A stretch of DNA of 64,000 bases from NCBI RefSeq assembly GCF_014701235.1, contig NZ_AP022873.1, positions 1,054,001 through 1,118,000 of the forward strand, written 5' to 3'. The DNA comes from Dissulfurispira thermophila (GTDB taxonomy: Bacteria > Nitrospirota > Thermodesulfovibrionia > Thermodesulfovibrionales > Dissulfurispiraceae). The translations under genes were made by a program, and so were the position numbers. A model generated the notes under the pieces. That model had not been told where the DNA came from. It saw only the letters and a program-made list of their open reading frames with translations, and did not search any database. Positions 4,990 to 43,981 of this stretch are shown in pieces. Numbering within the stretch: position 1 is the first letter of the stretch; each line of letters begins with the position of its first letter.

Positions 4990-5066
4990 TTCTGAAGTGT
5001 CAGAGATTAAAAGTGTCATAGTGCCAAAGTATCAAAGCTCAGAGACTCTGACACTCTGATACTTAT
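4990..5066. repeat. AGTGTCA word tract with inverted parts
   Basis: This stretch between acpS and etfB consists of variants of the words AGTGTCA and AGTATCA. It contains inverted pairs such as AAGTATCA/TGATACTT and TGTCAGAG/CTCTGACA that could fold into a hairpin. The same word family (AAAGTGTCAAAGTGTCAAGG) is found in frame inside carB at about 50649-50690. No gene is seen in it. Confidence 0.7.
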
Positions 5067-5100
5067 AAGGCTTTGATAATCATAATAAAGGAGGATAATC

Positions 5101-5883
5101 TTGAACATCATTGTCTGCATAAAACAGGTTCCTGATACAGCAGAAGTCAGGATAAATCCTGAGACAAACACATTAATAAGGGAAGGTGTTCCGAGCATTA
5201 TAAATCCATATGATCTACATGCAATCGAGGCTGCTTTACAGATAAAAGAGAAAGTTGGAGGCAAGGTGACTGCTATTACAATGGGACCTCCACAAGCAGA
5301 AGATGCATTGAGAGAGGCAATATCCATGGGAGTTGACGATGTAAGGCTTATTTCTGATAGGGCATTTGCCGGTGCTGATACATGGGCAACTTCATATACT
5401 CTTTATAAGGCTATTGAGAAACTCGGATATGACATAATCATTTGTGGAAAACAAGCAATAGATGGAGATACTGCACAGGTAGGCCCTGAGGTTGCAGAAT
5501 TTCTGAATATTCCTCACATAGCATATATTAGAAAAATCGAGGATGTCAGCGACAAGTATATAAAAGTTCAGAGGCTTATGGATGACGGTTATGATGTTGT
5601 TGAATCCCCGATTCCTGTTCTTCTTACTGTTGTTAAGGAACTCAATACTCCAAGACTCCCATCGCTTAAGGGGAAAATGACAGCTAAAAAGGCAGTAATT
5701 ACAAAAATGGATTTGAATGCAATTGGTGCTGAACCTGATAATGTCGGGTTAAAGGGTTCTCCAACACAGGTCAAAAATATATTTGCACCTCAATCAAAGG
5801 CTGACAGAAAAATGCTTCAAGGGAGTATTGAAGATCAAGTAGATGAACTTATCAAACAATTGAGAGGGTTAAAATGCGTATAG
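5101..5883 (+). CDS. etfB: Electron transfer flavoprotein, beta subunit
   Basis: The smaller ETF subunit, which binds AMP or a second flavin and moves electrons between acyl-CoA-type dehydrogenases and other carriers. The TTG start at 5101 is chosen because a clear AGGAGG lies nine bases upstream and the protein begins MNIIVCIKQVPDTAEVRI, the family N-terminus. CGKQAIDGDTAQVGPE (about 122-137) is the EtfB signature. The 260-residue length is normal. It overlaps etfA by ten bases. Confidence 0.95.
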   Translation: MNIIVCIKQVPDTAEVRINPETNTLIREGVPSIINPYDLHAIEAALQIKEKVGGKVTAITMGPPQAEDALREAISMGVDDVRLISDRAFAGADTWATSYTLYKAIEKLGYDIIICGKQAIDGDTAQVGPEVAEFLNIPHIAYIRKIEDVSDKYIKVQRLMDDGYDVVESPIPVLLTVVKELNTPRLPSLKGKMTAKKAVITKMDLNAIGAEPDNVGLKGSPTQVKNIFAPQSKADRKMLQGSIEDQVDELIKQLRGLKCV

Positions 5884-9832: not shown

Positions 9833-9836
9833 AGAA

Positions 9837-9898
9837 AAGGCTGAAGGCGGTAGGCTGAAGTCTATTTACAGCCTTAAGCCTTAAGCCTAAAGCCTATT
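9837..9898. repeat. GGCTGAAGG word tract, inverted
   Basis: A tract built of GGCTGAAGG-type words followed by the reverse words (CAGCCTTAAGCCTTAAGCC), capable of forming a hairpin. It fills the gap between ndk and the helicase, whose start codon directly follows it. Related words occur in frame in the helicase (about 12048-12068) and twice in carB (about 50413-50441 and 51547-51573). Confidence 0.7.
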
Positions 9899-9899
9899 T

Positions 9900-12800
9900 A
9901 TGAGCAATTTTATAACAAACAGCCCCACAAAGCACCTTAAAAAAAGGCTACTTGACCTACTTTCAAAGAGTGTTGAGCTTAAATTCCTCGTTGGATTCTT
10001 TTATTTCTCAGGTCTCAAAGAATTATACGAAGGCATTAAAAACAATCCTGATGTAGTCTTAAAAGTCCTCGTTGGTCTTAATGTTGATAGGACTGCCTAC
10101 GGGATTATTGAGTATGGAAGTGATGATAAAAGACTATCAGATGATGAAAGGCTTTATAAATTCTTCGCCTCTATCAAAAACTCCATAAACACAGAGCATT
10201 TTGACCACAGGGAGTTTTATGAACAGGTGAGGTTCTTTATTGGGCTTATAAAGAATAATCGTCTCATCATCAGAAAGACCTATGAGCCAAACCATGCAAA
10301 GCTCTATATCTTTAAACTTCAGCAAGAGCAGATCGGAAGGAACGCACTCTTTATCACAGGAAGCAGTAATCTCACTTCCTCTGGCCTGACCCGCCAGCAT
10401 GAGTTCAATGTTGAGATAAGTGACTATGGATTTGAAGAGGCAGAGGGATATTTTGATAAATTGTGGGAGAGGGCAATACCTGTAACAGAGGATGATGCAG
10501 TCAAAGAGAGGCTCGTTGAGGTATTGGAGAAAGAGACCTTAATTAAGGAGATTACACCCCTTGAGGCATATGCCCTTGTGCTTAAGACATATCTTGATAG
10601 CTTTAAAGGAAAGGCTCTTGGACAGAGACTCATAGATGTCTTAAATGAAAATGGCTACAGGACTTATACATATCAATTAGATGCAGTAAGACAGGCACTC
10701 TCAATCATAGAGCAGAATAATGGTGTAATCATCGCTGATGTTGTTGGCTTGGGAAAGACGGTGATTGCATGTGCAGTTGCATTTGAGCTCAAAAAAAGAG
10801 GGATTGTGATTGCACCACCGGGTCTTATCGGAGATAAGACAGGAAGTGAAGGATGGAAGAGATACCTTGAGGAGTTTCATCTAACAAAACTTGGCTGGGA
10901 AGCCTTCTCACTTGGAGACCTTGAAAAGGTATCAGAATTTGTTGAAAGGGCAAGGGATATAGAGGTTGTTATAGTAGATGAGGCTCATAGATTCAGGAAT
11001 CAGGACACAAGGGATTATGAACTCCTCAAAAATATCTGCAGGGGCAAGACCGTGATGCTTCTTACTGCCACACCCTTTAACAACAGACCTGCTGATATAT
11101 TCTCACTCCTTAAGCTTTTCATAACCCCAAAGAAATCTACAATCACATTAACTGACAACCTTGAATTTAGATTTACAGAATTTAAAGGCATCTTTGACAG
11201 ACTCTCATATATAAAGAGATATGCCAGTTCCTCTGACCGTCAAAAAAGGCAGAGGGCGCTTTCTTATTACGAAGCCCTCTTTGGCAAGGATGTAATAGAT
11301 ATGAGCGATGTAAAGAGCCGTTCTCACTATCTTGCAAGACAGATTAAGGATACTATTGAGCCTGTAACAATAAGGAGGAATCGCCTTGACCTTCAGGAAA
11401 ACCCTCATTATCGCCACGAAATAAAAGAACTCTCAAAGATAGAAGACCCTCTGGAATGGTTCTTTGAATTAACAAAGGAGCAATCAGAGTTTTATGATAG
11501 GGTAATCAACAGTTATTTTGCCCTTCCTGATGAAGGCGGTATGTTCAAGGGAGCAATCTATAAACCCTTTATCTATAAGATCGGGATTGATGCCTTTGAT
11601 GACCTTAAGGGAGATGAGAGCTTCCAGTATATCACCCAGTTTAACCTCTATGACTTTATGAGGAGGTTGCTCGTAAAGAGATTTGAGAGTTCCTTTGGTG
11701 CCTTCAGGCAAAGCCTTATAAACTTCAGGAAGATAACAGGTATTGTCCAGTCCTTTATAGAAAAGACAGGCAGATATATCCTTGACAGACAGCTTCTTGA
11801 AAAGATCTATCACAAAGATATTGACAAGATTGAGGAGGAGCTTAAAGGATATGCAGATAGGATTAAAAATGGTGAGTATCCAAAGAATCACGAGATTTAT
11901 AAGATAGATGAATTTGAAGATGGAGATGAATTTCTTTCTGACATAGAATCAGATAAACAACTCTTTGATGACATTCTGAAAGAGCTTGAGAAACTTAATC
12001 TTACAAATAATGACCCAAAGGCAGAAAGGCTTATTGAGGCTATAGGCATAAGGCTGAAGGCTGAAGAAAAAAGAAAGATTGTAATCTTTTCAGAATATTT
12101 AGACACAGTAAAATACCTCGCTCCTCTCTTACAGAAAAAGTTCAATAACAGGGTCCTTGTTGTGTCAGGAGACCTTACAAAGACAAAGACAAAGGAGATT
12201 TATGCAAACTTTGATGCCTCTTATCCAGAGGATAAACAGGCTGATGATTATGATATTCTCCTTACAACAGACAGGATCTCAGAGGGTTTCAATCTCAATC
12301 GTGCTGGCATGGTTATAAACTATGACATCCCATGGAATCCTGTCCGCGTGATACAGAGGGTTGGAAGGATAAATCGTATAAGCAAAAAGGTCTTTGATAG
12401 CCTCTACATAGTGAATTTCTTTCCAACAGAAAAGGGTGCAGACCTTGTTCATAGCCGTGACATAGCAGCGAATAAGATGTTTCTGATTCACAATGCCCTT
12501 GGTGAGGACTCAAAGATATTTGACATAGATGAAGAACCATCACCATCAGGTCTTTATACTCGCATTAAACAAAATCCCGACTATCTTGAGGCTGAGAGCT
12601 TCTATACAAGGGTATTGAAGGAGTTTGAGCAGATGAAGGCAGATGCCCCTGAGATTATTGAAAGGCTTAAGGACTTTCCACCACGCATAAAGGTGGCAAA
12701 GCAAGCAGATAGAGATGAACTCTTTGTAGTCCTTAAAAAAGGCAGGCTCTATATTTATCATAAAGACTATGCAGATACCGGGGTCCCCAAAAAGTCACAA

Positions 12801-13274
12801 GACTTTTTGGGGTACAGTGGAGAGATAGAGTTAAAGAGCCTTGAGGATATTCTTGACAGGCTTAAACCCAGAGCCTTAAGCGATGAGCCCTTATCCCTGA
12901 GTAACCGATTCTGGGACGAATATGACAAGATAAGGAACTTTCAGGAGACTGTAAGACATCGCCTCACAGAGCAGAGCCTTGAGCAAAAGGCAATAAATAA
13001 CCTGAAGAGCATGCTTTTAATACAGGGCATGGATGAACTTATACCATACAAAGACTTCATAAGGACACTCCTTGAAGACATCTTTGATTATGGCACCCTC
13101 TCTGACTATACACTGAGAAGGATTGCAAATCTCGCTATAAAGGATTTATCAGCTACAGTCAGGGAGATAGAGAGACTAAAGAGAGATCTTGGCGATGATT
13201 ACCTCTACAGAGAAAAGGAGAGGATCAAAGAACTTACAAAAGAGATAATCATTGCCATTGAAAACAGAGTATAG
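9900..13274 (+). CDS. Phospholipase-D-like / SNF2-type helicase fusion
   Basis: A 1124-residue protein. The N-terminus (about 1-200) is a PLD-like domain with one HKD-like half-site: NHAKLYIF (about 131-138) followed by GSSNLTSSG (about 155). It is joined to a RapA/SNF2 helicase with motif I VVGLGKTV (about 279-286), motif II DEAH at 360-363, LTATPFNN, and C-terminal motifs V and VI (DRISEGFNL about 791, QRVGRINR about 818). Such proteins are found in DNA-restriction and anti-phage loci, including DISARM-related ones. Residues 961-972 ([12 protein letters not shown]) are encoded by a 36-bp palindromic repeat, and GIRLKAEEKRK by a GGCTGAAGG tract. The start lies right after a repeat and has no clear ribosome binding site. 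No partner gene overlaps it. Confidence 0.88.
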   Translation: MSNFITNSPTKHLKKRLLDLLSKSVELKFLVGFFYFSGLKELYEGIKNNPDVVLKVLVGLNVDRTAYGIIEYGSDDKRLSDDERLYKFFASIKNSINTEHFDHREFYEQVRFFIGLIKNNRLIIRKTYEPNHAKLYIFKLQQEQIGRNALFITGSSNLTSSGLTRQHEFNVEISDYGFEEAEGYFDKLWERAIPVTEDDAVKERLVEVLEKETLIKEITPLEAYALVLKTYLDSFKGKALGQRLIDVLNENGYRTYTYQLDAVRQALSIIEQNNGVIIADVVGLGKTVIACAVAFELKKRGIVIAPPGLIGDKTGSEGWKRYLEEFHLTKLGWEAFSLGDLEKVSEFVERARDIEVVIVDEAHRFRNQDTRDYELLKNICRGKTVMLLTATPFNNRPADIFSLLKLFITPKKSTITLTDNLEFRFTEFKGIFDRLSYIKRYASSSDRQKRQRALSYYEALFGKDVIDMSDVKSRSHYLARQIKDTIEPVTIRRNRLDLQENPHYRHEIKELSKIEDPLEWFFELTKEQSEFYDRVINSYFALPDEGGMFKGAIYKPFIYKIGIDAFDDLKGDESFQYITQFNLYDFMRRLLVKRFESSFGAFRQSLINFRKITGIVQSFIEKTGRYILDRQLLEKIYHKDIDKIEEELKGYADRIKNGEYPKNHEIYKIDEFEDGDEFLSDIESDKQLFDDILKELEKLNLTNNDPKAERLIEAIGIRLKAEEKRKIVIFSEYLDTVKYLAPLLQKKFNNRVLVVSGDLTKTKTKEIYANFDASYPEDKQADDYDILLTTDRISEGFNLNRAGMVINYDIPWNPVRVIQRVGRINRISKKVFDSLYIVNFFPTEKGADLVHSRDIAANKMFLIHNALGEDSKIFDIDEEPSPSGLYTRIKQNPDYLEAESFYTRVLKEFEQMKADAPEIIERLKDFPPRIKVAKQADRDELFVVLKKGRLYIYHKDYADTGVPKKSQDFLGYSGEIELKSLEDILDRLKPRALSDEPLSLSNRFWDEYDKIRNFQETVRHRLTEQSLEQKAINNLKSMLLIQGMDELIPYKDFIRTLLEDIFDYGTLSDYTLRRIANLAIKDLSATVREIERLKRDLGDDYLYREKERIKELTKEIIIAIENRV
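12780..12815. repeat. 36-bp palindromic element, copy A, in frame in the helicase gene
   Basis: The inverted arms GGGTCCCCAAAAAGTC and GACTTTTTGGGGTAC lie in frame and encode [12 protein letters not shown]. The reverse complement matches copy B in the IS4-type transposase (40654-40689) at 33 of 36 positions, and the forward sequence matches copy C in carB (51574-51609) at 28 of 36. The G-C pair at positions 15/24 of the arms becomes A-T in both other copies, so pairing is kept. Confidence 0.85.
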
Positions 13275-13289
13275 CTATAATAATCTCAA

Positions 13290-13403
13290 ATCCGAGATTT
13301 GAAATTTGAGATGTGAAATTTGAAATCCTGAAATCCGAGATTTGAAATTTGAGATGTGAAATTTGAAATCCTGAAATCTGAGATTTGAAATTTGAGATTT
13401 TAA
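13290..13403. repeat. 43-bp tandem repeat made of TTTGAAAT words
   Basis: A unit of 43 bases starting ATCCGAGATTTGAAATTTG begins at 13290, 13333 and 13376, with the last copy partial. Each unit is made of shorter words (GAAATTTGA, GAGATTTGA). It ends at the start codon of the S23-type gene. The same words follow that gene at 13891-13974 and appear inside its coding sequence near 13688-13722, so gene and repeat seem to belong together. Confidence 0.85.
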
Positions 13404-13404
13404 A

Positions 13405-13893
13405 ATGACCTACAAACGATTTGAAGATCTCCCTGTCTGGCAGGAAGCCATTGAACTGGCAAAACAGGTCTATTCTTTCACAAAAATCCCTGTCTTTAGA
13501 GGTTATCCCAGTCTTAAAGACCAGATAGAGCGGGCATCGCTTTCAGTCTCAAATAACATAGCAGAGGGTTTTGAACGGGGCACCACTAAGGAACTCCTTA
13601 CATTTCTTTATATTGCTCGTGGCTCAGCGGGTGAGGTTCGCTCCGTCCTCTGTTTTATTGAACAACTACCTGAATTTAAAGATTTCAACTCTGAGATTTC
13701 AAGTCTCAAATCCATATCAGAAGGCATCTCCCGTCAACTCAGGGCATGGGCGGATACACTCCAGAACTCTGAAATCCCCGGTCAGCGTTATCTTACAGAG
13801 AAGGGCCGGGAACTTTCTCAAAAAAGAAAAGAGCAGGATGAATTCTTAAAACAACTTAATGAGATTGTCGAAAAGGGGAGGGGGAAACTTTGA
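13405..13893 (+). CDS. Four-helix bundle protein, S23/IVP family
   Basis: A 162-residue protein of the S23 family, first known from intervening sequences in 23S rRNA genes and later found in many loci near restriction systems. Typical features: YKRFEDLPVWQEAIELAKQV at the N-terminus, LKDQIERASLSVSNNIAEGF (about 38-57), and LLTFLYIARGSAGEVRS (about 64-80). The residues PEFKDFNSEISSLKS are encoded by the same TTTGAAAT-type words that flank the gene. Function is unknown; the fold is probably a pentameric helical bundle that binds nucleic acid. No rRNA is nearby. Confidence 0.85.
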   Translation: MTYKRFEDLPVWQEAIELAKQVYSFTKIPVFRGYPSLKDQIERASLSVSNNIAEGFERGTTKELLTFLYIARGSAGEVRSVLCFIEQLPEFKDFNSEISSLKSISEGISRQLRAWADTLQNSEIPGQRYLTEKGRELSQKRKEQDEFLKQLNEIVEKGRGKL

Positions 13894-13974
13894 AATCTCA
13901 AATTTGAAATTTGAAATTTGAAATTTGAAATCTGAAATCTGAAATCTGAGATTTGAAACCTGGATCTGAAATCT
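13891..13974. repeat. TTTGAAATCTGAAAT word tract after the S23-type gene
   Basis: Repeated words of seven bases (TTTGAAA, TCTGAAA) run from the stop codon of the S23-type gene into the remnant of a RelE-like gene. It continues the repeat found before that gene. No gene or terminator is visible in it. Confidence 0.8.
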
Positions 13975-14106
13975 GAAATACCCCATGAGATTCTCAAACA
14001 AATATACGCTGCTCTGGAAGTGTTATCAGGAGGGCTAAAAGGAGATATTAAGAGACTTACAAATTTTTCTCCAGAATACAGATTAAGGGTTGTAGATTAC
14101 AGGTAG
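13975..14106 (+). pseudogene. RelE/ParE-type toxin remnant
   Basis: The frame reads PHEILKQIYAALEVL, then GGLKGDIKRLT and EYRLRVVDYR, followed by a stop at 14104-14106. This matches the middle and end of the RelE/ParE toxin fold (GDIKxL...YRLRVGDYR). The start and the last strand are missing. It is a decayed toxin gene lying between a repeat tract and an intact toxin-antitoxin pair. Confidence 0.65.
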
Positions 14107-14158
14107 ATTTTATAGCTTTACTTCAACCTTCAGTTCTGTGTTAAGGTGTGATATTATA

Positions 14159-14175
14159 GATATACATGATATATC
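14159..14175. promoter_or_regulatory. Palindromic operator before the antitoxin gene
   Basis: GATATACATGATATATC is a near-perfect palindrome ending 12 bases before the antitoxin ATG, next to a strong CAGGAGGTG ribosome binding site. A TATTATAGATAT stretch just upstream may hold the -10 box. Ribbon-helix-helix antitoxins usually bind such palindromes to repress their own operon; the assignment here is inference from position and symmetry. Confidence 0.5.
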
Positions 14176-14187
14176 AGGAGGTGAACC

Positions 14188-14436
14188 ATGCCAAATCAGA
14201 TGCTTATAAGAATAGAGGAGAAATCAAAAGAAAGGCTTACAAAACTCGCAAGGCTTGAAGGTAAGACAACGAGCCAGTTAATCAGAGAACTCATTGACAG
14301 GTATCTTGAAGAGCATGATATGGGTCCGTATGTTGATAATCTATGGGAAAGGATTGGTAAGAAAATGAGGGCAAAGGGATTTAGACAATCGGATATTAAA
14401 AAGGCGATTGAGGAGTCCCGTCGCCGTCATCCCTAA
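14188..14436 (+). CDS. Ribbon-helix-helix antitoxin
   Basis: An 82-residue protein. Residues 1-45 form a CopG-type ribbon-helix-helix: a strand (MLIRIEEKSKERL), helix A (LTKLARLEGK) and helix B (TSQLIRELIDRYLEEH). The charged C-terminus likely wraps the toxin. A strong ribosome binding site precedes it, and the PIN toxin follows after 35 bases. It probably neutralises the toxin and represses the operon through the palindrome upstream. Because the toxin gene overlaps the Eco57I-type gene, it may control the whole restriction cassette. Confidence 0.85.
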   Translation: MPNQMLIRIEEKSKERLTKLARLEGKTTSQLIRELIDRYLEEHDMGPYVDNLWERIGKKMRAKGFRQSDIKKAIEESRRRHP

Positions 14437-14471
14437 TATTCCGTTCTCCTATAAGAATCTGGTTAATATTT

Positions 14472-14873
14472 ATGAGGGTAGTTATAGATACAAACATCTT
14501 TGTCTCCTCTTTTTTTGGCGGAAATCCTAAGAAGATTATAGATTTATGGAAAAGGGGGGATATAACTCTATGCCTTTCCTCTGATATTCTTGAGGAATAT
14601 ATAGATGTTTTGATAAGACTCGGGATGAAGGACCAAAAAGAACTTTATGAACTATTATCATTTTTTTCATCAGGCTTTAATACCCTTTTTACGAAAAAGA
14701 CACCTTCTATCAGGATTGTTAAAAATGACCCTGATGATGACAAATTTGTAGAATGCGCCCTTGCCCTAAAGGCTGACCATATCATTACAGGAGATAAAGA
14801 ACTCCTATCAATAAGACGATACAAAAATATTCAGATACTTACCCCACAGGATTTTTTAAGGATATTTAGATGA
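14472..14873 (+). CDS. PIN-domain toxin (COG1569 type)
   Basis: A 133-residue PIN nuclease, expected to cut RNA with a metal ion. The acidic residues lie in VVIDTNIFVSSFFGG (D6), a glutamate in the SSDILEEYIDVL helix, the NDPDDDKFVECALAL motif and the final TGDKELL. Length and the closing ILTPQDFLRI are typical of the PIN family that pairs with small ribbon-helix-helix proteins. The stop overlaps the start of the Eco57I-type gene as ATGA, so toxin and methylase are translationally coupled. That is unusual and suggests the pair guards the cassette. Confidence 0.88.
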   Translation: MRVVIDTNIFVSSFFGGNPKKIIDLWKRGDITLCLSSDILEEYIDVLIRLGMKDQKELYELLSFFSSGFNTLFTKKTPSIRIVKNDPDDDKFVECALALKADHIITGDKELLSIRRYKNIQILTPQDFLRIFR

Positions 14874-17800
14874 CATCAGAGATATTAAAAGACATAATCA
14901 ACAACTTCTCCCCTGAGGAATTCATCCACTTCTTCAGGCAAAAGAACCGCTCTTTTAAGCCTTTTAATGAACCAGCCCCTCAATACAATGATGAAGACTT
15001 CACAGACTGCCTATTTCTTGGCGAGATACCCTTTAATGCCACTGACAGGCTCATAATCTATGTCTTCAAGGTCAACAGAGACCTCACCGAGCGTTCAGGC
15101 AAAAAGGCACAGTATGAAAAGGGCAAGAAGATACTCAAAGAGAGTTATGCAGACGCTGGGATTTTTATCTTTTATGATTCACAGGGTAGATTCAGATTTT
15201 CATTGATTCACACAGACTATGCTGGTACAAGAAGGCAATGGAGCCACTTCAAACGCTATACCTATTTTGTAAGCAAAGACCAGACAAACAAAACATTTCT
15301 CAAACAGGTTGAAGAATGTAATTTTTTAAGTCTTGAAGAAATAAAACAAGCCTTCTCCGTTGAGCCAGTAACAAAGCAGTTTTATAACGAAATTCAGAAC
15401 TGGTATTTCTGGGCAATGGATAAAATAACTTCTCCCGATGACTACAAATACAGCCAAAATGAAGAAAAAGACAGAGAAATTAGAAACGCAACAAATCTGA
15501 TAAGGCTGATCACAAGAATAATCTTTATCTGGTTCATAAAAGAAAAAGAGCTTATAAACGAAGACCTTTTTGATAAGACAAAACTTAAGAATATCGTTAA
15601 AGACTTTGGCGAAGGCAACAACTACTATAACGCAATACTTCAAAACCTCTTCTTTGCCTCATTAAACCAGAAAGTTGGCGAGAGAAAGTTTGCCAAAGAA
15701 GACGGATATCCAGTAAATAAAAGCGAATACGGAGTAAAAACACTATTTCGTTATAGAGATAAATTCAACATAGGCGAAGAAGAAGTGCTTAAACTTTTCA
15801 AAGACATTCCCTTTCTCAACGGAGGGCTTTTTGACTGTCTTGACAAAGAAGATGAAACTGGAAAAGTGATATACATAGACGGATTTTCAAGAAATCCAGA
15901 CAAACAGGCAAAAATTCCAGACTTCCTGTTCTTCCAGAAAGAAGAGACCAATATTGACCTTTCTCAATACGGACTTGGTAAAAACAAGCCCGTAAGAGGA
16001 CTTCTTGAGATTTTAAAAAGTTACAACTTTACCATAGATGAATCAACCCCAGTTGACCAAGAAGTCGCTTTAGACCCAGAGCTTCTTGGTAAAGTTTTTG
16101 AAAACTTGCTTGCCTGCTACAATCCAGAAACATCAACCACAGCCAGAAAATCCACAGGCTCTTACTACACCCCCAGAGAAATTGTTGACTACATGGTTGA
16201 TCAAAGTCTAAAAGAATACTTAAAAAACTCCTTACCCTCTGATAGGGGGGAATTAGAGGAAGAATTGGATGAAAAGATTACCCTTCTTCTTTCCTACACA
16301 GATGAAGCACCAGAGATTACAGAAGAAGAAAAAGAAGAAATCATAAGGGCTATTGCAAATATAAAAATACTTGATCCTGCCTGTGGAAGCGGCGCATTCC
16401 CAATGGGCATACTACACAAACTCTTGCTAATCCTTCAAAAAATTGATCCAGAAAACAAATATCTATACAAAATTCAGAAAGAAAAACACAGAGAGATAGA
16501 ACACATTTTAAAATCAGATGACAAAGATGAGTTAGAAGAGCTTTTAAATGAGTTAGAAGAAACCTTTGACGAAAAACTAAACTATCCTGACTATGCCAGA
16601 AAAAAATATCTCATAGAAAACTGCATCTACGGCGTGGACATACAGCCCATAGCCATACAAATAAGCAAACTCAGATTTTTCATATCCCTCATACTTGACC
16701 AAAAAGTTAACAAGACAAAAGACAACTTTGGTATAAGACCGCTACCTAACTTAGAGACGAAATTCATATCTGCAAATACCTTAATAGGGTTAGAGAGACC
16801 AAAACAACTTTCTTTTCGCAATCCAAAGATAGATGAAAAAGAAAAAGAATTAAAAGAACTCAGGCACAGATACTTTTCTGCAAAAACAAGAACGCAAAAA
16901 TTGAGATTACAGCAAAAAGACAAAAAAATCAGAGAAGAAATATCAAAACTGTTAGTCAACGACGGCTGGGATATAGAAACTGCAAAAAAGATAGCCAACT
17001 TTGACTTTTTTGACCAGAACGCATCAGCAGACTGGTTTGACCCTGAATGGATGTTTGGGATAAATGATGGATATGACATTGTGATAGGCAATCCGCCGTA
17101 TATTAAGGAATATACTAATCGACAGGCATTTGATGGTCTTAGAAGCAGCCCTTATTATCAGGGCAAAATGGATATATGGTATTTCTTTGTTTGTGTTGGA
17201 TTAGACCTATTAACGAACAGTGGAATATTAACTTTTATCGCTCAAAACAACTGGATTACTAATTTCGGTGCTAAAAAGATGAGAAACAAAGTAATTATAG
17301 ATAGTATTATAAAAAAATTAATTGACTTTGGCCCATATTTTATTTTTGAAAGTTCTGGGACTCAAACAATGATTATGGTATTTAAGAAAGACACAATAAC
17401 TGATAATTATTCATTTGAGTATCTAAGAATAAGAAGTAATAACCCCGCTTTTAACGATGTCCTTGATATACTCAGAAAAAACAACAATCCAAATATTGGG
17501 TATTTAGAACCAATCATTAAAAGAAGTGAATGCATTAATAAACCTTTAAACTTTTCGGATACAGATATAGAACAAATTTTGAAGAAAATAAAAACGAATG
17601 GACCATTTAATCTATTAGAGGAAGAAATCGCACAGGGCATTGTGTGTCCTCAAGATTTCTTAAATAAAAAGAATGCCCAAAAGTTAGGCAACAAGTTTCC
17701 GGTGGGAACGGGAATCTTTATAATATCTGACGAAGAGAAGCGAAGTATGAATTTAACATCAGAAGAACTAAAGATTATTAAGCCTTACTATACCACCGAA

Positions 17801-18403
17801 GAACTATCAAGATATTATGGGAGCAGGGAAAATAATTACTGGATAATCTATGCCAAATCTGACATGAATAAAAGGATTCACAAGTATCCAAATATAAAGA
17901 GACATCTTGATCGGTTTAAAAAAATCATTACTTCTGACTTTGGCCCCTATGGACTTCATAGAGCAAGAGACGAACGATTCTTCCAGGGAAAGAAGATTAT
18001 ATCTTTACGCAAGTGCCAGATTCCCACTTTTACATATACAGATTTTGATTGTTATGTATCGCAAACATTCTTTATAATAAAAACTGATAGAATAAATATG
18101 AAATATTTAACTGGAGTATTAAATTCAAAAATAGTGTCATTTTGGCTAAATCATAAAGGTAAAAAGCAAGGAAATCAATATCAGATTGATAAAGAACCAT
18201 TGATGAATATCCCCATCCCACCCCTCACCCCACAAAACAAACCCCTTGCCCAAAAGATAGAAACCCTGGTGGAGGAGATTCTGAAGAGAAAGTCTCAAAA
18301 CCCAAACTATGATACTACTAATCTGGAAAAAGAAATAGACAGATTAATCTATCAACTCTACGCCTTAAATGATAAAGAAATAACAGTCGTTGAAGGGAGG
18401 TAA
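14870..18403 (+). CDS. Eco57I-type restriction-modification methylase
   Basis: A 1177-residue protein. The N-terminal third (about 1-400) has the unclassified layout seen in type IIG and related enzymes (LIIYVFKVNRDLTERSGKKAQ, then AGIFIFYDS), which could be a nuclease module. The adenine N6-methylase core follows: motif I LDPACGSGAF (about 501-510), then IENCIYGVDIQPIAIQI, and motif IV NPPYIKEY (about 741-748). The C-terminal TaqI-type recognition region includes ISLRKCQIPT and ends with coil-like helices. It overlaps the PIN toxin and is followed directly by the KAP NTPase. It resembles PglX or DrmMI in size, but the other BREX and DISARM genes are absent. Whether it cuts DNA itself is open. 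Confidence 0.88.
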   Translation: MTSEILKDIINNFSPEEFIHFFRQKNRSFKPFNEPAPQYNDEDFTDCLFLGEIPFNATDRLIIYVFKVNRDLTERSGKKAQYEKGKKILKESYADAGIFIFYDSQGRFRFSLIHTDYAGTRRQWSHFKRYTYFVSKDQTNKTFLKQVEECNFLSLEEIKQAFSVEPVTKQFYNEIQNWYFWAMDKITSPDDYKYSQNEEKDREIRNATNLIRLITRIIFIWFIKEKELINEDLFDKTKLKNIVKDFGEGNNYYNAILQNLFFASLNQKVGERKFAKEDGYPVNKSEYGVKTLFRYRDKFNIGEEEVLKLFKDIPFLNGGLFDCLDKEDETGKVIYIDGFSRNPDKQAKIPDFLFFQKEETNIDLSQYGLGKNKPVRGLLEILKSYNFTIDESTPVDQEVALDPELLGKVFENLLACYNPETSTTARKSTGSYYTPREIVDYMVDQSLKEYLKNSLPSDRGELEEELDEKITLLLSYTDEAPEITEEEKEEIIRAIANIKILDPACGSGAFPMGILHKLLLILQKIDPENKYLYKIQKEKHREIEHILKSDDKDELEELLNELEETFDEKLNYPDYARKKYLIENCIYGVDIQPIAIQISKLRFFISLILDQKVNKTKDNFGIRPLPNLETKFISANTLIGLERPKQLSFRNPKIDEKEKELKELRHRYFSAKTRTQKLRLQQKDKKIREEISKLLVNDGWDIETAKKIANFDFFDQNASADWFDPEWMFGINDGYDIVIGNPPYIKEYTNRQAFDGLRSSPYYQGKMDIWYFFVCVGLDLLTNSGILTFIAQNNWITNFGAKKMRNKVIIDSIIKKLIDFGPYFIFESSGTQTMIMVFKKDTITDNYSFEYLRIRSNNPAFNDVLDILRKNNNPNIGYLEPIIKRSECINKPLNFSDTDIEQILKKIKTNGPFNLLEEEIAQGIVCPQDFLNKKNAQKLGNKFPVGTGIFIISDEEKRSMNLTSEELKIIKPYYTTEELSRYYGSRENNYWIIYAKSDMNKRIHKYPNIKRHLDRFKKIITSDFGPYGLHRARDERFFQGKKIISLRKCQIPTFTYTDFDCYVSQTFFIIKTDRINMKYLTGVLNSKIVSFWLNHKGKKQGNQYQIDKEPLMNIPIPPLTPQNKPLAQKIETLVEEILKRKSQNPNYDTTNLEKEIDRLIYQLYALNDKEITVVEGR

Positions 18404-18406
18404 TTG

Positions 18407-21232
18407 ATGGAGATGAGTTACATTCCAGATGAACCTATAAATTTATTTGAAAATGACCTTCTTGCAACATCTGCTTATGTTGAGGCTCTTGAAGAGATTT
18501 TAAAAGATTGCCCAACACCTTATACAATAGGTATTTTTGGCTCATGGGGTTCTGGGAAATCATCAATTCTAAAAACTATTCAGCATAAGTATAACACAGG
18601 CAACAAGAAAGAAATAATGTTTTTTATTTATGATGCGTGGAAGTACTCCAAAGACGATTTCAGAAGGAGCTTTATTTTAGAGTTATGTAACTTTATGATG
18701 CTAAAAAAAGAGAAAGAAAAAATATTTGAGGCCCTTTATGGAACAACATCTACTACAAAAGAATTCGGTATTGCAAAAATAATTACATATAAAACATCCC
18801 AATCTACCACATTCACTCCAATCATACAACCTGAATTATTTGAAGAGAAATTTAAAGATATACTTAACATACTTAAAAATAACGGATGTAATAAATTTAT
18901 AATTGCCATAGATAATATAGACAGATGTCACAAAGAACAAGCATTTGAAATTTTGCTTACCGTGAAAAATTTTCTTGAATTAGAAGGAGTTATTTTCCTT
19001 ATTCCAATCGACGAAAAAGGTCTTAGAAAATATCTTCAGATGTCACACCAAGATGCCAACGAGTTTTTAAGAAAACTTTTTAATACACACATACAGATAC
19101 GCAGTTTTTCAGATAATGAATTATTTGATTATGGAATAAAGTTAATTGAAAAATACGGGATTAAACTACCTCAGAAAGAGACCGTTATTTCTTTAATATC
19201 ACAGGAATATTCAAAGAATCCTCGTAGAATAATTCAGTTTTTAAACACTCTTCAAACAGAATATTACTTGGCACAGATACAGGAAAGGAAAGGATACATT
19301 CCACAAGGAGCCATTACCAAAAATATAGATATGCTTGTAAAACTCCTGATTATAAGGGAAGAGTATCCAGAAATTTACGAAATTACTCAGGACGACAAAA
19401 ACCTTATCAAAGAAATTAGTGAAGCCATACTGACTCATCGTTTTGAAAAAGAAGAAAATTTGTGGGTATATAAAGACAAAGACTTGACACTTACAGAAGA
19501 GCAATATAGATTTTTTATGAGAACCGCAAACATAGTAATGGAACCCAATGAATTAGAGCCATTTTTTGTAAATAGAGATGTATTCAGAGATTTGCCAGAT
19601 GAAATTTATACTCTTGTGATTAGTCAGGATTGGGAAAACTTAAAGAAACTTGTAGATAAAGGTGAAATTACCTTGGCGAAGTTGATAGATTATATTAACG
19701 ATAAAATCAATGAAGATGTAATCAAAAGAAAATTATATTCCACCTCAGGCTATAATTTATTATCTCTTTTATGTAAGATTTTAGCAGAAAAAGGACAAGA
19801 AATTTCCGGTATTCCTCAATATATTAAATCAGCGCTCGGCATTAATGAACTTTACGAAAATGTATTTAATTTTCCTCAAAAAGAATTTAATTATTCAATG
19901 AAATGGTTTAAAGAGAAAGAAATTAATACTCCTGTTGAAAGAGTTATAAACATACTTAATCAATTATCACTTGATAAGATTACCAAAAATGGACAAATCA
20001 TACAATTTTTTAAAGAATTTATTACAACATTTAAAGAAGAGCGGGAAACACTTTCACAAATTAAAACGAAATTTTCAGAACTTTTGAGTCAAAACTTTGC
20101 ATTATATTCTGAATTTGAAGAAATAATTAAAGACGAGTTGATAAAGTATCTTTTAGATGATGATTTTGCTGCTAAATTAATACCCTCACTTCAACAAGAT
20201 TATAATAAGAACCAAACTAAAGAAAAAGTCAAAGTTCTAAAAGCATTACACATGAATGGAGTATTAAAGGGAAAAACAGTAAATACCTATATAGATAAAG
20301 TTATTTCCCTTATTGGTAACCTTCCATCCCATTTAAACTGGGATTTCTTCAGATTCTGGCTTGAAGGGATACAGGGATTCGTTGAAGAGTTATCCGAGCA
20401 AACAACTATTAATAACTTATTTAACTTATTAAATCAAAATTATGATTTTATACATCAACAATTCTCTTACAGACAACTATCAGAGGTTAACATTAATGTA
20501 TACAAAGCATATGTAAGCGTTGTGGGTGAATTGTATTTGGTAACCAATAATAGTACTCAAAGACAAAGAATTATAACTTGGTTAAATAATTTTCTAAGTC
20601 AATCAGTTCAAATTTCACCAGATGCTGTTTTTCCACATCTAATTAAAATATACCACAAGATTATAAAAAATACCGATGAATGGCCGTTTGCACAGAATAT
20701 TATTGACCTATTAATAACACAGACAAATATAGACTTAAAGAACCCACTTGCTGACACAGTTAATTTAATGTTGGGAAGAAATAAACAATTGAATGTATTA
20801 ACTGAACAATTGATAGAGAAAATAATTGACCATTATTTTGACCTATTTTTTAGAGGCGAACAGAAGGCAGAGAATTGGATTTTGCAAATTATAAATTTTG
20901 TAACTGATAAAATTTTTGATTATATCGTATCCATTCACTATCCAGAACAACTTAATAAGCTTAAAAGTATTATCAATAATATTATAAAAATTAAGGGGTT
21001 TGATGCCCTTTATCCAAAATTGCGAGCGTTACTTGCAAGTGATGACAAAGAGGAGCAGATTACTGCTATAAACATTCTTTCAGGCATAAAAGAAAAAGTT
21101 CCTTCTGACAAAGTTGAGATGATATATCAACTCTTATCAGAAATAGATGACAAAAATATTTCCGAAGATGAACATAATAAGTTAACAGATTTAAAAACAC
21201 ATTTAGAACAACGTCAAAAGGAGGCACTATGA
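18407..21232 (+). CDS. KAP-family P-loop NTPase
   Basis: A 941-residue protein with the KAP NTPase domain in its first 350 residues: Walker A GIFGSWGSGKSSIL (about 40-53), Walker B FIIAIDNIDRC (about 163-173), and the PIDEKGLRKYL and SKNPRRIIQFLN regions typical of KAP proteins. The remaining 550 residues are helical and repeat-like and end in a charged helix. No transmembrane segment is obvious, unlike many KAP proteins. KAP and STAND-like NTPases often act as switches or effectors in anti-phage systems. ATG at 18407 is chosen over TTG at 18404 because of the GGGAGG eight bases upstream. It follows the methylase directly and overlaps the next gene by four bases. Confidence 0.87.
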   Translation: MEMSYIPDEPINLFENDLLATSAYVEALEEILKDCPTPYTIGIFGSWGSGKSSILKTIQHKYNTGNKKEIMFFIYDAWKYSKDDFRRSFILELCNFMMLKKEKEKIFEALYGTTSTTKEFGIAKIITYKTSQSTTFTPIIQPELFEEKFKDILNILKNNGCNKFIIAIDNIDRCHKEQAFEILLTVKNFLELEGVIFLIPIDEKGLRKYLQMSHQDANEFLRKLFNTHIQIRSFSDNELFDYGIKLIEKYGIKLPQKETVISLISQEYSKNPRRIIQFLNTLQTEYYLAQIQERKGYIPQGAITKNIDMLVKLLIIREEYPEIYEITQDDKNLIKEISEAILTHRFEKEENLWVYKDKDLTLTEEQYRFFMRTANIVMEPNELEPFFVNRDVFRDLPDEIYTLVISQDWENLKKLVDKGEITLAKLIDYINDKINEDVIKRKLYSTSGYNLLSLLCKILAEKGQEISGIPQYIKSALGINELYENVFNFPQKEFNYSMKWFKEKEINTPVERVINILNQLSLDKITKNGQIIQFFKEFITTFKEERETLSQIKTKFSELLSQNFALYSEFEEIIKDELIKYLLDDDFAAKLIPSLQQDYNKNQTKEKVKVLKALHMNGVLKGKTVNTYIDKVISLIGNLPSHLNWDFFRFWLEGIQGFVEELSEQTTINNLFNLLNQNYDFIHQQFSYRQLSEVNINVYKAYVSVVGELYLVTNNSTQRQRIITWLNNFLSQSVQISPDAVFPHLIKIYHKIIKNTDEWPFAQNIIDLLITQTNIDLKNPLADTVNLMLGRNKQLNVLTEQLIEKIIDHYFDLFFRGEQKAENWILQIINFVTDKIFDYIVSIHYPEQLNKLKSIINNIIKIKGFDALYPKLRALLASDDKEEQITAINILSGIKEKVPSDKVEMIYQLLSEIDDKNISEDEHNKLTDLKTHLEQRQKEAL

Positions 21233-21789
21233 ACCAGAATGAAGTAAATACTGCCTTTGAAATCCTACTTGAAGAGATAGAGGAGGTCTTCAATATCATT
21301 AGCAAGGAGGGAGAAGATGTCTTTAAGACTCAAGATTTTGATAAAGCAAGATATCTTATTGAAAGCGGTGAGCGGCTTAAGTCTTTTAGGGAAAAGGTTA
21401 GATTGCTTCAAAAAGAATGGCAGAGTATTTTTAGCGGTAGAGTAAAGGCATCTCACAGAAAAAGAAAGGAGAAAAGCAAACTTAAGAAAGGATTAAGAAC
21501 ACCTGAAGATGAATTTAAAATCCCTATATTAGAAGCACTGATTGAATTAGGCGGTAAGGCAGAGATGAAGGCGGTTCTTAAAAAAGTTTACAGCAAGATG
21601 AAAGACAGGTTAAATCAGTATGATTTATCTCCTTTGCCATCCAATCCAAAACAAGCTCGCTGGGAAAACACAGCACAGTGGGCAAGAAACACGATGGTTA
21701 GCGAAGGTCTTCTTTCCCCAGATTCTCCCAGAGGCATATGGGAGATAACAGAAAAGGGTAGGAACTTCAATTCTGTGTCCAGGTCTTGA
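21229..21789 (+). CDS. Winged-helix protein, Mrr N-terminal-domain type
   Basis: A 186-residue protein. Residues 1-75 are a coiled, charged helix region; residues 85-180 look like the Mrr_N winged helix: EDEFKIPILEALIELGGKAE, then ARWENTAQWARNTMVSEGLL and GIWEITEKGRNF. Mrr-type restriction enzymes have this domain in front of a nuclease domain, which is absent here. A DNA-reading or regulatory subunit of the upstream methylase and NTPase is plausible. The start overlaps the KAP stop (ATGA), so the two are made together. Confidence 0.75.
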   Translation: MNQNEVNTAFEILLEEIEEVFNIISKEGEDVFKTQDFDKARYLIESGERLKSFREKVRLLQKEWQSIFSGRVKASHRKRKEKSKLKKGLRTPEDEFKIPILEALIELGGKAEMKAVLKKVYSKMKDRLNQYDLSPLPSNPKQARWENTAQWARNTMVSEGLLSPDSPRGIWEITEKGRNFNSVSRS

Positions 21790-22008
21790 AATATAACAAA
21801 AGATGGTTACCTCATTCAACAGTTAAGTGGTAAGATAGACCCCATAATTCCATTTGATATTGACCATCATCTTTCTCATGAAGACCTGCCACTGCAGGCA
21901 GCAGATTTGTTTTCATGGGGTATCTTTAGAAAATATGAAAAAAAGGACACCGAATGGTTTGAGGTTTTTAAAGCTAAGGTAAAATACGATGATATTTATT
22001 TACCATAA
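21790..22008 (+). pseudogene. C-terminal remnant of a DUF3800 protein
   Basis: After a stop codon at 21787-21789, the frame reads KDGYLIQQLSGKIDP, then DIDHHLSHEDLPLQAADLF and SWGIFRKYE up to a TAA at 22006-22008. LPLQAADLFSWGIFRKYE matches the C-terminal end of DUF3800 proteins (an RNase H-like family common in defence islands). There is no start codon and the front three quarters are missing. Confidence 0.65.
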
Positions 22009-22099
22009 AAAAAGAGCGTGCCCTATGGGTGCATCACCCTCTGGCTTAGCCAACCTATGGAAGGGAACACCAAAGGAACCCACAGCGGACTTACCGCTC
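22007..22099 (-). ncRNA. Candidate 93-nt structured small RNA
   Basis: On the minus strand an extended -10 box (TGGTATAAT, plus positions 22106-22114) puts transcription start at about 22099. The RNA opens with GAGCG and closes with CGCTC (22014-22018) followed by seven T, so the ends pair and the closing stem could serve as a terminator. Inside are several hairpins: AGCGG/CCGCT with a UAAGU loop, GGG..CCC, TGGC-TAA-GCCA and GGGTG-ATG-CACCC. No reading frame explains it. It lacks the GGAA apical domain of signal recognition particle RNA and does not match a riboswitch I know. Confidence 0.5.
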
Positions 22100-22105
22100 A
22101 TAATA

Positions 22106-22114
22106 ATTATACCA
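22106..22114 (-). promoter_or_regulatory. Extended -10 promoter for the candidate small RNA
   Basis: Read on the minus strand this is TGGTATAAT, a perfect TATAAT with the upstream TGN extension that can replace a -35 box. It ends seven bases before the G that opens the paired RNA structure. No good -35 hexamer is seen. Confidence 0.45.
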
Positions 22115-22203
22115 AGCAGGATACACTAATAAAATATTTATTCTTGTAATAAATCTATAACCATTATTTATAAAAGAAACCGGTTATTAGGTTTTGGGGG
22201 GGT

Positions 22204-22578
22204 GAGCTCAAGGATATAAAATTTGCAGAAAAAAGGTAGAAACTGTTACCTATGAAGATGTGATGAAAAAATACAGGTAATGAAAGTACGATTTTTAAAG
22301 CCTGCACAACTTGAAGTTGATGATGCAGTATCATAGTATAACTCTCAATTATCTGGACTTGACAGCAGGTTTTAAGACGATTTAGACAGGATAATAAAAA
22401 GAATAATAACCTTTTCTTATGCTTCTATGGAAATTGAACCTGGATTTAGGCGTTGTATTTTTTTTCAAGATTTCCTTATGGAATCATTTACCGAATTGAA
22501 AACAATGAAATATTAATTGTTGCAGTAGCACATTTACATCGTAAACCAAGATACTGGATTGAAAGAATGACCAAATAG
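22204..22578 (+). pseudogene. Decayed antitoxin-ParE/RelE toxin pair
   Basis: The first part (22204-22280) reads ELKDIKFAEKKVETVTYEDV, then MKKYR and stop, like the C-terminus of a small antitoxin. Its TAA overlaps the ATG at 22280. From there the frame reads MKVRFLKPAQLEVDDAVS, a ParE/RelE N-terminus. It is broken by TAG, then TAA, then a frameshift in a T-run near 22460, after which RFPYGIIYRIENNEILIVAV and HRKPRYWIERM complete the toxin to a stop at 22576-22578. Three lesions make it a clear pseudogene. Confidence 0.75.
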
Positions 22579-22621
22579 GCTTTACCCTTGCTTAAAAAAC
22601 CACCACATTGCAAAGAAAGAT

Positions 22622-22831
22622 AGAGACCAGATCCTCTTTGCCTAATACCTTGCAAAAGAAGGAGAGGACAGCTCTCTTATCATACATCCTCAAGACCTCA
22701 GGCCTCTCAAGGCATTCGGAGAAGACTATCCTGAAGCAAAAAGGTTCCTCATCTATCGGGGAAGTGAGAGGCTGTTAAGAGATGGTATTTCTATAGAGAC
22801 GGCTGCAGAATTCCTTCTTGGATTAAGGTGA
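22622..22831 (+). pseudogene. C-terminal remnant of an AAA/DUF4143-type ATPase
   Basis: The frame reads RDQILFA, a stop at 22643, then SSLIIHPQDLRPLKAF and EDYPEAKRFLIYRG up to EFLLGLR and a TGA at 22829. The DYPEA...LIYRG...FL pattern is the usual C-terminus of DUF4143 ATP-binding proteins. The ATPase part is missing. From here to 23003 I see no further gene. Confidence 0.5.
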
Positions 22832-23003
22832 AGTGAGGATGAACTCTGCGGGGAATCTCGTATCTGAGATTGTTTTGCCTTCGGCTCGTAATGATAGTAA
22901 AAAGTAGGCGAAGTTATGAGGAAATCGCTGGGATAAATTTGGTTTATGAATTGTAAATATAAGGCCCTAAAGTATAAAATAAATAAACAAAAAAGGAGAC
23001 AAT

Positions 23004-43815: not shown

Positions 43816-43820
43816 AGTAT

Positions 43821-43924
43821 TACCTTTAAGAATAGCCCTGTGAGGCTAAGAAGGTAAGGAGACATTGTGAAATATAAGTACAAGATAATATGCCTTCCTC
43901 TAAAAACAGGGGAAGGCTTTTTTA
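43821..43924 (+). promoter_or_regulatory. PyrR-binding RNA attenuator
   Basis: The leader has the PyrR-binding hairpin: TACCTT (43821-43826) pairs with AAGGTA (43851-43856) and TAGCC with GGCTA, around the conserved loop CTGTGAGG. The core AGCCCTGTGAGGCT closely fits the Bacillus consensus (AGTCC-x-G-x-GAGGCT). A terminator follows: GCCTTCCTCT (43892-43901) with AGGGGAAGGC (43908-43917) and six T. UMP-bound PyrR would hold the first hairpin and allow termination. A second hairpin (GGGAC/GTCCC, about 43933-43946) follows. Confidence 0.8.
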
Positions 43925-43981
43925 TGAGCAAAAGAGGGACTTGTGTCCCCCTTTTGAAATCCTTTTTGAAGAAGATCAACT

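Follow-up and report, generated by a model that had tools for sequence, protein, structure and literature searches.

We analysed a 64,000-nt window from the genome of Dissulfurispira thermophila (GCF_014701235.1, NZ_AP022873.1, positions 1,054,001–1,118,000 of the forward strand), the window being the whole stretch of DNA examined, and identified a DUF3800-V small RNA gene which faces the C-terminal remnant of a DUF3800 gene (Table 1). The ndk and ubiD genes, which abut in three congeners and in one further genome (G146), are separated here by 13 kb carrying genes for a SNF2/PLD helicase, a type IIG restriction-modification (restriction-methylase) protein, a KAP NTPase and an Mrr_N-domain protein. 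A first-pass annotation, made from the letters of the DNA, had placed a candidate small RNA gene at the end of this defence island among gene remnants. That location is correct, since the RNA lies at the right end of the island, with the DUF3800 remnant adjoining it.

Table 1 Features of the locus in window coordinates, and copies of the unlisted RNA type in coordinates of the named loci
Feature	Position	Strand	Basis
Defence island, RNA at its right end, inserted between ndk and ubiD	9833–23003		ndk/ubiD comparison, domain content
Mrr_N-domain ORF	21229–21789	+	PF14338, E 2.4e-16, residues 95–180 of 186
DUF3800 remnant, last 68 codons and stop TAA (22006–22008)	21802–22008	+	Profile match, identity to relative, translation
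DUF3800-V small RNA gene	22007–22099	-	Predicted +1 to end of T-run; Rfam model span 22009–22105
Closing stem 3′ arm CGCTC and T7, presumed terminator	22007–22018	-	Read directly; T-run retained in most relatives
Closing stem 5′ arm GAGCG	22095–22099	-	Read directly; closing helix 99% of cells paired in 20 relatives
Extended −10 TGGTATAAT	22106–22114	-	Read directly; 6 nt before predicted +1; without TTGACA −35
Unlisted RNA type, copies	L175 2131–2204, L197 2130–2203, L198 2132–2205, L200 2105–2178	-	
Unlisted RNA type, copies	L196 1415–1488, L199 1413–1484, L201 1416–1489	+	

Direct reading of the minus strand gave, in order, TGGTATAAT (22114–22106), TATTAT, GAGCG (22099–22095), CGCTC (22018–22014) and seven T (22013–22007), so that the extended −10 and the pairing of GAGCG with the CGCTC directly before the T-run are as the first-pass annotation had described them. 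No ORF of at least 50 aa covers the RNA, in agreement with its remark that no reading frame explains the sequence. The Infernal search against Rfam which it had proposed (Rfam 15, 64-kb window) returned RF02964, the DUF3800-V RNA, at 22105–22009 of the minus strand with 68.3 bits (gathering cut-off 37.4, E 2.9e-13). This match covers the full model length (1–96 of 96) and is the only Rfam match at the RNA locus, with all 20 consensus pairs and all 22 conserved columns retained. The whole 2.37-Mb genome was searched for RF02964 copies and for DUF3800, and RF02964 is present there once, which is not the pattern of a known repeat, the finding that the annotation had named as contrary to its proposal. 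The Rfam score and the covariation in relatives described below bear out the candidate and support a small RNA gene of an already catalogued family, with transcription predicted from sequence. Missing from the first reading were the family name and the fact that the facing remnant is the C-terminal end of the usual partner, DUF3800. New here are the orphan state of the RNA, the strict rule of RNA/DUF3800 placement and an RNA type unlisted in Rfam.

Within the phylum, 22 of 395 genomes contained the DUF3800-V RNA, with 28 copies in all. The lone-sequence fold of the window copy is moderately better than that of shuffles (z −2.16); as this stability is only moderate, the weight of the structural case falls on the homologues. 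An automatic consensus from 27 copies contained 20 pairs, 14 of them with compensated double changes. Within the window's subtype (20 copies), a structure of 26 pairs, among them those of the closing stem, had 97.5% of cells paired against 90.4% in shuffled alignments, and 13 double-change pairs against 5.6, a count that none of the 500 shuffles reached. All pairing measures of this structure exceeded all 500 shuffles, and slid controls stayed below 47%; the covariation check suggested in the first-pass annotation hence came out in favour of an RNA. The closing stem is near-invariant in this subtype (99% paired, no double change). In the second V subtype it reads AAGCGG/CCGCTT in L020 and AGACGG/CCGTCT in L022, and these two compensated changes support it there too.

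The RNA has the shape of one long rod with a GAGCG/CGCUC closure and conserved internal loops GGUAAGNCC, GGUGUUCCC and GGUUGGC. The helices that had been counted as at least three more hairpins do exist, but they are stacked or nested within a single unbranched rod and form no separate hairpins. Most variable positions fall in helices that covary, and between the predicted ends no variable unpaired segment is long enough to serve as a guide. One copy (L028, 1501–1637) has an apical-loop insertion of ~40 nt and adjoins a 39-codon DUF3800 remnant. In L024/L005 (G339:C53, 5115–5676), two tandem DUF3800-V RNAs, 370 bp apart, accompany one intact DUF3800; next to the first RNA, only a few final codons of a second DUF3800 seem to remain.

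TTGAC was detected upstream of the RNA in 21 of the 28 copies, and most relatives have a TTGACA-spacer-(−10) promoter at the equivalent place; the best −35/−10 fit had a mean of 2.7 mismatches against 5.5 in shuffled upstream sequence. The claim that the window copy has its own promoter stands as to the extended −10, but not as to a full two-hexamer promoter: the TTGACA −35 is absent and a standard two-hexamer scan reports no promoter. The claim thus rests on the extended −10 and on the relatives, of which L023 carries the same TTGGTATAAT as the window copy. The T-run after the closing stem is retained in most copies. Compared with the family as described by RF02964, the window copy is alike in its full-length match, rod structure and predicted own promoter; where the family has a DUF3800 gene alongside, it has only a 68-codon C-terminal remnant in the standard position. 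It also differs in having no TTGACA −35, and the outer pairs of the model fall in its spacer and T-run, where they are mostly unformed.

The DUF3800 remnant matched the profile at 7.7e-30 over positions 144–211 of 211, its first ~141 codons being lost, and it is 78% identical to residues 142–209 of an intact relative. Its translation runs ...DGYLIQQLSGKIDP...KVKYDDIYLP and then stops. The stop codon overlaps the T-run of the RNA exactly as in intact loci, and the Mrr_N ORF is joined in frame to the remnant through a TGA. The acidic residues D7, E8, D11 and D130, invariant in the clade, fall in the lost part. As this remnant is the only DUF3800 match in the genome, the window RNA is an orphan; the intact DUF3800 that a functional DUF3800–RNA pair requires was not found in this genome. 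Between the remnant and its best relative there are 32 third-position differences and 13 at first plus second positions, so the two diverged mostly while the gene was still functional, and it was truncated recently. That the window RNA is intact is therefore no proof in itself of selection since the loss, and this RNA is probably a transcribable relic without its cognate partner.

Intact loci follow a strict rule. In each of the 15 loci found to retain an intact DUF3800 of this clade, the RNA gene converges on the DUF3800 gene and terminates at the DUF3800 stop codon. Of the 13 intact DUF3800-V proteins from the 395 genomes, none lacks an RNA in this position. The same geometry was found on a phage contig (L212) and on L213, a mobilizable plasmid of Candidatus Tenderia electrophaga carrying a DUF3800-V cassette, as well as for type IX (n = 5 loci), type VII (n = 1) and an RNA type absent from Rfam (n = 8 loci). 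The type IX (RF02968) and type VII (RF02967) loci also resemble DUF3800-V in having a TTGAC(A/G) promoter; they differ from it in sequence and structure, and their partners belong to other DUF3800 clades. On the viral contig, by ORF reading, the cassette (4995–5744) is flanked by the genes for the terminase large subunit and the portal, and its strand is opposite to that of the late genes, in the manner of an accessory unit carried by the phage. Scanning genome and viral contigs with a first DNA pattern had returned 126 loci, none of which holds a DUF3800-V RNA by covariance model because the allowed spacing of 12–24 excluded the true spacing of 11 nt; an improved pattern run on the viral contigs found no loci.

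The RNA type follows the DUF3800 clade without exception (V, IX, VII and the one type outside Rfam). Mapped onto a maximum-likelihood phylogeny of 36 DUF3800 proteins, the RNA types require 3 changes, the minimum; shuffled types needed 12.3, and none of 200 shuffles was as low. The second V subtype, including the plasmid copy, corresponds to one clade with support 99/96. Such matching is what a protein–RNA partnership predicts, and linked inheritance alone could also give it. With its own RNA type for each DUF3800 clade, placed head-on at the stop codon, the rule makes a defence protein–RNA partnership directly testable, and the window orphan is a naturally occurring example in which the RNA has lost its protein.

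The RNA type outside Rfam is a structured RNA of ~70 nt facing a DUF3800 clade related to the DUF3800-V clade, and most copies have a TTGAC promoter. No Rfam family matched it even at E 1. Its model had 12 matches in 10 of the 395 genomes (11 strong, 1 weak), most of them beside DUF3800, and it shares a GUAAGNCC-like start with the DUF3800-V RNA.

About half of the RNA copies have no intact DUF3800 alongside. At these orphan loci we found C-terminal pieces of 68, 47, 39, 23 and ~6–10 codons, or else a frameshift, an internal deletion or nothing recognisable. The loci were collected through RNA searches, which biases them toward RNA-only loci. Orphan RNAs retain 19.2 of 20 pairs and partnered RNAs 19.0 of 20. 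This leaves two readings, that the orphans arose only lately or that the RNA is retained for its own sake. The remnants are all short, and deletions may stop at the RNA. At L245 (1572–1598) and at L010 (just after the RNA), with two RNA types, only the last ~8–9 DUF3800 codons remain. In G295, a DUF3800-V gene is split over two contig ends (L004 and L193, on C24 and C63) with ~6 residues in common, as if interrupted by an insertion sequence.

DUF3800 RNA loci are often part of restriction-modification islands and are sometimes carried by plasmids or phages. N6_Mtase was detected within 6 kb of 10 of 27 RNA loci against 0.55 expected (P 2.7e-11), a count lowered by the broken contigs of many genomes, and by reading of ORFs and Mtase positions several RNA loci lie directly beside hsdM. 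A location in defence islands was thus observed both in the window and, as enrichment near DNA methylases, in the relatives. Against the explanation favoured below counts that PADLOC 2.0.0, as matched here, contains no DUF3800. Neither NCBIfam nor PADLOC has a name for DUF3800-V, no PDB chain matched the DUF3800-V profile, and a single-sequence structure prediction of the phage-borne DUF3800 (pLDDT 48.8) was too poor for a fold search. For the function of the DUF3800 RNA families of Rfam, our literature search found no describing paper; the RNAs themselves were reportedly first described by Weinberg in 2017. DUF3800 has been modelled as an RNase H-fold nuclease, found with CRISPR effectors in Cas12a2 and type VI-F loci, and noted as associated with ncRNAs (PMC10910872, PMC12669027).

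We consider it fairly probable that the locus is an orphaned DUF3800-V RNA gene whose RNA is a fixed, non-guide partner of an RNase H-fold DUF3800 defence nuclease, the non-guide part following from the lack of an unpaired variable segment between the predicted ends. The RNA would be transcribed from its own promoter and fold into the rod closed by GAGCG/CGCUC, with transcription stopping at the U-run beside the closing stem; it would bind the DUF3800 protein as a fixed partner in a ribonucleoprotein and activate or restrain the nuclease, and the complex would act in phage defence. In this genome the protein was truncated recently, which probably left the RNA as a still transcribable relic, and with the partner gone the proposed mechanism cannot operate here as described. 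Two points speak against the partnership: the clade matching could reflect inheritance of linked cassettes without RNA–protein contact, and the copies that keep their structure without an intact partner, about half, do what a strictly dependent subunit need not do.

The orphans could also be read in another way, which we regard as unlikely but worth weighing: DUF3800 would be a harmful toxin that the RNA binds and silences, so that loss of DUF3800 is tolerated and loss of the RNA is not. Among the 395 genomes there is no intact DUF3800-V without the RNA and there are many RNAs without an intact DUF3800; the shortness of the surviving C-terminal pieces and the pairs kept by the orphan RNAs fit as well, as does one orphan of the unlisted type that retains only the last nine DUF3800 residues. 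However, the DUF3800 gene is ~6.5 times as long as the RNA, which makes chance damage commoner in the gene, the search through the RNA favours RNA-only loci, and an N-terminal piece that has no RNA is more easily overlooked (G041 may be one). A distinctly less likely reading would make DUF3800-V an RNA-silenced defence nuclease, and selection would keep the orphan RNAs because they neutralise incoming DUF3800 cassettes, as genes of small-RNA immunity or anti-addiction. In every intact locus the two genes face each other and overlap at their ends, which might instead suggest antisense control, in which DUF3800 mRNA running past its stop codon carries the complement of the RNA as a 3′ UTR and pairing lowers DUF3800 expression. 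This idea is modelled on convergent type I toxin-antitoxin systems, where an sRNA gene faces a protein gene with overlapping 3′ ends and the protein is a small membrane peptide. The layout is alike, but DUF3800-V has a nuclease-type protein and a conserved, covarying fold, and antisense pairing needs no conserved internal fold, whereas this fold shows strong covariation and its loops are conserved between phyla. A different RNA structure for each DUF3800 clade at the same place likewise points to recognition by the protein, and we hold antisense control to be improbable.

Still more doubtful is a role as the guide of a programmable nuclease, as played by the omega RNA in IscB/TnpB systems, even though DUF3800 is described as a nuclease with an RNase H fold and is found next to Cas12a2 and type VI-F loci (PMC10910872, PMC12669027). 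In both cases a structured RNA adjoins a nuclease whose fold is RNase H-like, but in DUF3800-V the genes face each other, no hypervariable unpaired guide segment lies between the predicted +1 and the terminator, and the variable positions are mostly covarying pairs. The moderately stable single-sequence fold might even be that of a chance hairpin or a known DNA repeat with no RNA gene, a reading to which we give almost no credence: the homologues already contradict it through the Rfam score, the covariation and the conserved promoters in relatives, and a single copy in the genome is not a repeat.

Two other features were observed in the window. Upstream of the RNA promoter, at 22240–22600 on the plus strand, lies a degenerate ParE-like toxin gene (PF05016, E 0.0047, with stops read through). 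A PyrR binding site (RF00515, 57.6 bits, just above the cut-off) was identified at 43819–43926 on the plus strand, before a pyrimidine gene cluster.
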